Assembly (NCBI RefSeq): GCF_000425145.1
Contig: NZ_AULF01000003.1
Location: forward strand, 62,001 to 126,000
From: Pedobacter glucosidilyticus DSM 23534
Lineage (GTDB): Bacteria; Bacteroidota; Bacteroidia; Sphingobacteriales; Sphingobacteriaceae
Reading direction: 5' to 3'
Length of the DNA stretch: 64,000 bases
Shown here: in pieces, positions 58,231-59,093 of the stretch
Numbering within the stretch: the first letter of the stretch is position 1
Layout: every line of letters starts with the position of its first letter
Program-made: the position numbers and the translations under genes
The notes under the pieces: model-generated
What the model saw: only the letters and a program-made list of their open reading frames with translations
What the model was told of the DNA's origin: nothing
Databases searched by the model: none

Positions 58231-58241
58231 TTTTTTTAAAC

Positions 58242-58310
58242 ACAGCGTTCGCAGAGATTTTTAAAACTAAAAAGAGTTTTATGTTCTTGGTGAACGCTGT
58301 TTTATTTTTT
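58242..58310 (+). terminator. Long hairpin terminator after DUF4861 gene
   Basis: ACAGCGTTC (58242-58250) pairs perfectly with GAACGCTGT (58292-58300), followed by TTTATTTTTT. The loop holds an inner 6-bp hairpin. The stem shares GTTCGCAGAG with the nearby repeat family, so a repeat may have been recruited as a terminator. Confidence 0.6.
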
Positions 58311-58433
58311 CAAACCACGGAGGAGACAGCATTCTCAGAGAGCAGAAAAAGAAAAATTAAAAAAGAAAAATTAAAAATAGAAAACTCACCACCCAGAACT
58401 GCTAACCGATAACCTACAACCAATAACTTCTGT

Positions 58434-58591
58434 AAAATCAATCATTCTCTCATTCAAAAATCAATCAATAAAACTCACCACCCAGCTCCGTGTCCTCTGC
58501 GAACTTTGTGGTTAATAAATTAAGCCTTAAAGATTAAAAACGATGAAATCGTAAAACCATGTTAAGCTCTCGTTGCAAACGAACGCAAGAT
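58434..58591. repeat. Repeat copy A with 47-bp leader
   Basis: The 111-bp core lies at 58481-58591 and contains CTCCGTGTCCTCTGCGAAC, then CGATGAAATCG and CTCGTTGCAAACGA, each able to form a hairpin. The leader (58434-58480) is also found before copy C but not B. Confidence 0.9.
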
Positions 58592-58666
58592 AAATAGACT
58601 TAGCTGGGTTATTTAAGAATTTGATAAATAAATATTTTATAGACAATCTCGTGTCTAGGATATCCG

Positions 58667-58777
58667 CCCAGCTCCGTGTCCTCTGCGAACTTTGTGGTTA
58701 ATAAATTAAGCCTTAAAGATTAAAAACGATGAAATCGTAAAACCATGTTAAGCTCTCGTTGCAAACGAGCACAAGAT
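58667..58777. repeat. Repeat copy B, core only
   Basis: Nearly identical to the core of copy A. The hairpin CTCGTT-GCA-AACGAG (58755-58769) is perfect here. No leader. Confidence 0.9.
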
Positions 58778-58852
58778 GAAAAATTAAAAATTAAAAAGGA
58801 AAAATTAAAAATCTCTAAAATGTCCCATATAGATACAACATGCAACTGATAC

Positions 58853-59010
58853 AAAATCAATCATTCTCTCATTCAAAAATCAATCAATAAAACTCACCAT
58901 CCAACTCCGTGACCTCTGCGAACTTTGTGGTTAAAAAATTAAGCCTTAAAGATTAAAAACGATGAAATCGTAAAACCACATTAAGCACTCGTTACAAACG
59001 AGCACAAGAT
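58853..59010. repeat. Repeat copy C with 47-bp leader
   Basis: Leader 58853-58899 matches copy A over its full length; core 58900-59010 differs from A and B at several positions. One change in the hairpin loop (GCA to ACA) keeps the stem intact. Confidence 0.9.
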
Positions 59011-59029
59011 AAGTCCTCATATTTTAGAA

Positions 59030-59093
59030 CTAACAAACTAAAACCTAACAAACTAACCAACTAAAAACTAACCAACTAAAACCTAACCAACTA
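59030..59093. repeat. Imperfect short tandem repeat CTAACCAACTAAAA
   Basis: Units of about 8-15 bp beginning CTAAC occur at 59030, 59045, 59053, 59068 and 59083. The last unit contains the stop codon of the minus-strand dehydrogenase gene. Confidence 0.75.

Follow-up and report, generated by a model that had tools for sequence, protein, structure and literature searches.

Three nearly identical copies of a 111-bp hairpin-forming repeat lie in direct orientation in one gap between two convergent genes of Pedobacter glucosidilyticus DSM 23534, raising the questions of what kind of element they are, what may have mobilised it, and how three copies came to share a single gap. The window referred to below is the whole 64,000-nt stretch of DNA that was analysed, and coordinates are counted from its first letter.

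Two repeats in one core

The 111-bp core was searched against the window's whole genome (4.02 Mb, 62 contigs), giving 22 matches. The three window copies were the only full-length matches; the partial ones mostly covered positions 1-44 of the core (module 1) or about 53-111 (module 2), and the few that spanned both modules were more divergent. Solo copies of each module are present in this genome. Module 1 was found within 150 bp 5′ of module 2, on the same strand, in 8 of 15 copies when up to 4 mismatches were allowed, a level to be read against random 150-bp pieces of the window, of which 1% reached 5 mismatches to module 1. Every window copy joins module 1 to module 2, two dispersed repeats that are unrelated to each other, in a polar composite. 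The REP/MITE-like character proposed in the sequence-only reading fits the right half, which has dispersed copies, compensatory changes and a RAYT gene with inverted flanking hairpins, but the 111-bp core is not one element. The CCTCTGCGAACTTTGTGG segment, which had been counted as part of the same element, belongs to the other repeat family, the one that has GxxExxY as its gene partner. Near many copies of both modules, another dispersed sequence, like 'ataacttgtatgaagggatagccttgcgtgatg', was seen (loci L008, L016, L018 and L022, on contigs C14 and C2).

The features of the gap are listed below; G001, G004 and G007 denote congeners.

58231-59082, no strand: intergenic gap holding the array, between the convergent DUF4861 and FAD-linked oxidase genes
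58237-58304, forward: strong hairpin 3′ of the DUF4861 gene, possible terminator; left arm resembling reversed module 1
58314-58345, reverse: degenerate module 1-like remnant, recognised by eye; place of a solo module 2 in G001 and G007
58434-58480, forward: leader of copy A, the same as that of copy C
58481-58515, forward: module 1 of copy A, right half of a GxxExxY-type heptamer repeat unit
58531-58593, forward: module 2 of copy A, double hairpin of the RAYT-associated type, with hairpin 1 at 58540-58552 and hairpin 2 at 58566-58586
58601-58666, forward: leader of copy B, different from those of A and C; a near-identical one precedes the last G004 copy
58667-58701, forward: module 1 of copy B
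58717-58779, forward: module 2 of copy B
58853-58899, forward: leader of copy C, the same as that of copy A
58900-58934, forward: module 1 of copy C
58950-59012, forward: module 2 of copy C

The three direct cores noticed earlier (58481-58591, 58667-58777 and 58900-59010) were borne out, with 2 differences between A and B, 8 between B and C and 10 between A and C over 111 bp, and their likeness is not due to chance, because BLAST E values between copies range from 1e-41 to 1e-52. The 47-bp leader was likewise found before A and C only, these two being identical at 47/47 positions and B agreeing at 14/47. Hairpin 1 (CGATGAAATCG) is exact in all three copies, whereas hairpin 2, also described for each core, is exact in B only and takes the forms CTCGTTGCAAACGAA in A and CTCGTTACAAACGAG in C. 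The gene upstream of the array encodes a DUF4861 protein, and part of the repeat motif had been thought to form its terminator. The left arm of the hairpin at 58237-58304 (-27.2 kcal/mol; z -6.5 against shuffles) does resemble the reverse complement of module 1 over 25 nt at 84-88%, and a role as terminator is plausible, but a terminator scan made no call anywhere in the region, this hairpin included. The inverted piece reported at 58314-58345 gave no significant alignment within the window, yet it marks the place of the solo module 2 in two congeners. Directly past copy C, at 59028-59093, lies a degenerate tandem repeat of AACTAACCAACTAAAACC type, and similar runs adjoin other repeat copies in the genus.

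Module 2 and its RAYT gene

Covariation was assessed in 45 distinct module 2 copies from four genomes. In this set, chosen as well formed and gap-free, which favours structure, and with co-inherited copies counted more than once, the two-hairpin structure is paired in 95.7% of cells. For the outer pair of hairpin 1, A-U is seen in 21 copies, G-C in 12 and U-A in 8, and for one outer pair of hairpin 2, C-G is seen in 30, A-U in 5 and U-A in 3. Double-change cells numbered 30, compared with 7.2 after shuffling, a value that none of 500 shuffles reached, and slid structures scored below the two-hairpin structure. Three pair types at each of two positions would be hard to explain without constraint on the stem. 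Single copies fold marginally better than shuffles (z -0.75 to -2.3), and the case for the structure rests on covariation, not energy. Confinement of the element to this gap and stems lacking compensatory changes had been named as observations against the sequence-only reading; instead, copies occur across the genome and in congeners, and compensatory substitutions are present across the 45 copies.

Of the 18 genomes of the genus that were searched, five contain module 2: 13 copies in the window's genome (G000), 27 in G001, 12 in G004, 11 in G007 and 1 in G003, with none in the remaining genomes at the search threshold. On contig C15 of the window's genome, a Y1 transposase gene lies between inverted module 2 sequences, the downstream one of which has hairpin 1 only, without hairpin 2. 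Orthologues 86-88% identical occur only in G001 and G007 among the 18 genomes; in both, the gene occupies the same position close to a leuB-like gene and has an inverted module 2 on either side. A RAYT gene flanked by the same hairpins, for which a check had been suggested from the window alone, was found in three genomes. All three genomes with an 86-100% identical RAYT have at least 11 module 2 copies, and among the 15 genomes without a close RAYT, G004 is the only one with many; its 12 copies are present, yet a close RAYT was not found in its draft assembly. The more distant RAYTs of the genus (25-50% identity) have other flanking sequences, as judged by eye, so the pairing of module 2 with this RAYT looks specific. 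The flanks of the RAYT gene are free of module 1.

The G001 and G007 proteins scored 99.9 and 96.7 bits against the NCBIfam model REP_Tyr_transpos (NF047646; cut-off 80), and they carry the motifs NHLH, WQ, YIHNNP and a downstream SS, with a HuH-to-Y spacing of 85 residues. The copy in the window's genome, which scored 70.1 against the same cut-off, is frameshifted just past YIHN, assembly error aside; the gene is intact in G001 and G007. Judged by the NF047646 pass and the subclass motifs, this RAYT is assigned to subclass 2.6 (Bertels group 5); genes of this subclass have been described as having flanking hairpins of an atypical kind that lack a GT[AG]G tag (PMC6006769).

Several further observations concern RAYTs and module 2. 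Two other Y1 transposases of the window's genome, on contigs C5 and C36, were set aside as partners, with no module 2 match nearby in the genome search. The distant RAYTs of the genus (L158-L166) each lie beside repeats of their own, for example gagtctgaagactc or a lettered family around ctacaagctcgcac. A tandem array in G001 (L188, G001:C1:87500-90300) has about a dozen module 2 copies alternating with the palindrome AGCCCAAGGTTTAAACCTTGGGCT at a period of about 110 bp. At the end of contig C15, beside the RAYT unit, the start of an open frame resembles an IS transposase (MLPNKKPENQTSLFFTFEHTLNRHHPLFLLANKID; L004:2848-3056), and contig breaks such as this one may fall in repeats.

Module 1, heptamer arrays and GxxExxY genes

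Module 1 is half of an inverted-repeat unit made of CTYTGYG heptamers and closing with GGTTAA. The pattern of its right part (CTYTGYGNNCTYTGYGGTTAA) has 9 exact matches in the window's genome, where the same pattern read backward has none. On contig C19, a GxxExxY gene (PF13366/TIGR04256) has one module 1 copy about 150 bp ahead of it and is preceded by a tandem array of module 1-type units. A suspected link between this type of repeat and GxxExxY was tested in 80 GxxExxY loci gathered with a single query, the C19 protein. The 21-bp motif, allowing up to 2 mismatches, had 37 matches no more than 500 bp from the gene, compared with 6 in the whole remainder of these loci. Density, counted with the heptamer CTYWGYG, was 17.3 per kb on the reverse strand of the first 100 bp upstream and 17.7 per kb on the forward strand of the first 100 bp downstream, compared with a background of 0.25-0.3 per kb more than 1.2 kb from the gene. 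At least two inward heptamers within 250 bp were found at 75/80 GxxExxY loci, 22/280 other ORFs of the same loci and 1/25 RAYT loci; outside Flavobacterium, the same held for 47/52 GxxExxY loci.

The same heptamer profile was obtained at 25/30 loci found by HMM in other Bacteroidota genomes (flanks of 330 bp). In Acidobacteriota, inverted heptamers in the strict form occur at 16/26 GxxExxY loci, and a CTCGGCG variant is seen at locus L308. By eye, CTCTGCG and CTTCGCG forms were recognised at Gemmatimonadota loci and on a Sphingomonas plasmid, and no heptamers were seen at the GxxExxY locus of a Treponema plasmid. Across 296 Bacteroidota genomes, the 21-bp motif with at most 1 mismatch is present in 97, of which 89 have the gene, and 932/944 motif copies lie in GxxExxY-bearing genomes (Fisher p 1.5e-25, which overstates the strength because related genomes are not independent). 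Motif copies reach 80 per genome and correlate with the number of GxxExxY genes (Spearman 0.52); the backward motif gave 4 matches in all. Heptamer arrays and GxxExxY genes are thus associated in several bacterial phyla. A search of the open-access literature returned no description of this link.

Many dispersed module 1-type copies form inverted pairs that share the GGTTAA ends but enclose no gene; one of these folds into an almost perfect hairpin about 40 bp long (-62.7 kcal/mol, z -12). Gene-bearing and gene-less units have inverted ends in common, and on this sequence likeness we interpret module 1 as a MITE-like derivative of a GxxExxY unit. The unit at the C19 site is common to several congeners, and the short cdd-gyrA-like junction of G007, which has neither gene nor array, may therefore reflect loss as readily as a site that the unit never entered. 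The GxxExxY family is present in half of the Bacteroidota genomes sampled and in about one third of the Acidobacteriota genomes. Chromosomes commonly carry it, but among plasmids tblastn at the sensitivity used found it in 8 of 72,556 records, all 8 predicted to be non-mobilizable.

Several GxxExxY gene copies are broken; in an alignment that left out copies with stop codons, D68, E78 and K80 are invariant. The AlphaFold model (pLDDT 91.7) has Cas4 and lambda-type exonucleases as its nearest PDB folds (Foldseek E 0.002 at best, TM about 0.5), and a sequence search of the PDB returned no relative of either RAYT or GxxExxY. On this model, the protein likely has a PD-(D/E)XK nuclease fold, which makes it a putative nuclease. 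It may act on the heptamer ends or repeats.

Origin of the array and comparison with known systems

The same gap in G001, G004 and G007 holds related arrays of 2-4 copies. The leader of copies A and C also accompanies copies in G001 and G007, and that of copy B precedes the last copy in G004; in G001, a tandem duplication within the gap takes in the leader. In G001 and G007, the solo module 2 stands at a module 1-like remnant matching about 58314-58345 of the window. An old array that was duplicated and recombined locally is the most likely source of the three window copies, given the related arrays of the congeners at this site. Three independent insertions were rejected as their source, as the array and its leaders are common to congeners. 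Module 2 may have entered preferentially next to module 1, or the two may have been joined first and copied later as a unit.

We consider it probable that the window element is a composite of a RAYT REP (module 2) and a GxxExxY-type half unit (module 1) that was multiplied locally. Module 2 would be the REP of a Bacteroidota RAYT, an HUH/Y1 single-strand transposase; its hairpins would be the single-strand structures likely recognised by the enzyme, which, by analogy with the known RAYT pathway, would have mobilised module 2 and dispersed copies in trans. Module 1 would be half of a gene-less, MITE-like derivative of a GxxExxY unit, joined to module 2 on its 5′ side in the same orientation, and tandem duplication and recombination within the gap would then have multiplied the composite. 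For module 2, the mechanism draws on the known RAYT pathway, while that for module 1, like the order of joining and multiplication, is what we infer. Counting against this reading are the frameshift in the RAYT gene of the window's genome, the 12 module 2 copies of G004 despite the lack of a close RAYT in its draft assembly, the missing hairpin 2 downstream of the C15 RAYT gene, and the possible loss at the C19 site in G007. More tentatively, and with somewhat less than even confidence, we propose that GxxExxY genes and their inverted heptamer arrays make up a class of mobile element that is widespread but has not been described. Its members would be compact units encoding a PD-(D/E)XK nuclease, which, together with derivatives that lack the gene, would be the source of many scattered CTCTGTG/CTTTGCG-type repeats; the window element would be such a derivative fused to a RAYT REP.

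The heptamer arrays might instead be binding or regulatory sites of GxxExxY, for example if the protein were a nuclease belonging to a defence or addiction system, with dispersed copies kept as sites. The association and the inverted flanks fit this explanation equally well, and the opposite-orientation heptamers that also occur at many GxxExxY loci (134/507) and the stability of the gene unit at one site across the genus speak for it. We nevertheless regard it as rather unlikely, since gene-less inverted pairs with GGTTAA ends at many loci, and up to 80 motif copies per genome, resemble dispersal, and since several gene copies are broken.

That modules 1 and 2 are one RAYT-moved element, with solo modules as its decay products, is improbable: the fixed order and orientation in 8/15 copies would be expected of such an element, but the two modules have separate partner genes, module 1 is missing from the RAYT flanks, solo copies of each module occur in the window's genome, and module 1-type repeats extend throughout Bacteroidota, compared with five of 18 genomes of the genus for module 2. 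The hairpins could also be RNA-level elements acting in 3′ end formation or mRNA stability and multiplied by duplication and gene conversion without transposition. The position of the array between convergent genes and the possible terminator nearby agree with this, and the covariation, compatible with structure in DNA or RNA, does not settle the matter; but copies are found at many loci that have no relation to one another, inverted copies flank the RAYT gene, the array region has no Rfam match at gathering level, and single copies fold near the shuffled level, making this an improbable account. The composite of a RAYT REP and a GxxExxY-type half unit remains our preferred reading.

The RAYT half provides a documented, covarying repeat for a poorly described RAYT subclass, and the module 1 half provides a specific DNA partner for a widespread protein family of unknown function. 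Because this partner, the heptamer array, has been found, GxxExxY function can be tested at once; if the link holds, it would explain a kind of intergenic repeat that has no named owner in the literature searched. GxxExxY is not, to our knowledge, known as a transposase, and we know of no heptamer flanks for Rpn (YhgA-like, PF04754), a different family to which we liken it for comparison only, both being small nuclease-type families tied to the question of DNA mobilisation. The role of Rpn is unclear, and it has been linked to DNA mobilisation and phage defence (PMC5350276, PMC10327210). Module 1 units resemble MITEs in carrying the inverted ends of gene-bearing units without the gene, but their partner gene belongs to a PD-(D/E)XK family, their ends are heptamer arrays, and no target-site duplication was established for module 1 or module 2. 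Like GTAG- or CGTC-tagged REPs (PMC3733652), the repeats are short dispersed palindromes, often paired and often lying between convergent genes; unlike them, module 2 has no GTAG/GTGG or CGTC tag at its hairpin foot, and an alignment-conserved CTTG lies 5′ of the hairpin 2 foot in the RAYT-sense strand. The closest likeness is to TnpA-REP/RAYT subclass 2.6 of Bacteroidetes (PMC6006769), in which a Y1 transposase with NH[LIV]H, WQ, YIH[QN]NP and a downstream SS is likewise flanked by atypical hairpins without GT[AG]G that have copies elsewhere in the genome. What differs here is that module 2 usually occurs joined to module 1, a repeat unrelated to it, and that its two-hairpin anatomy is documented, with covariation, for this genus.
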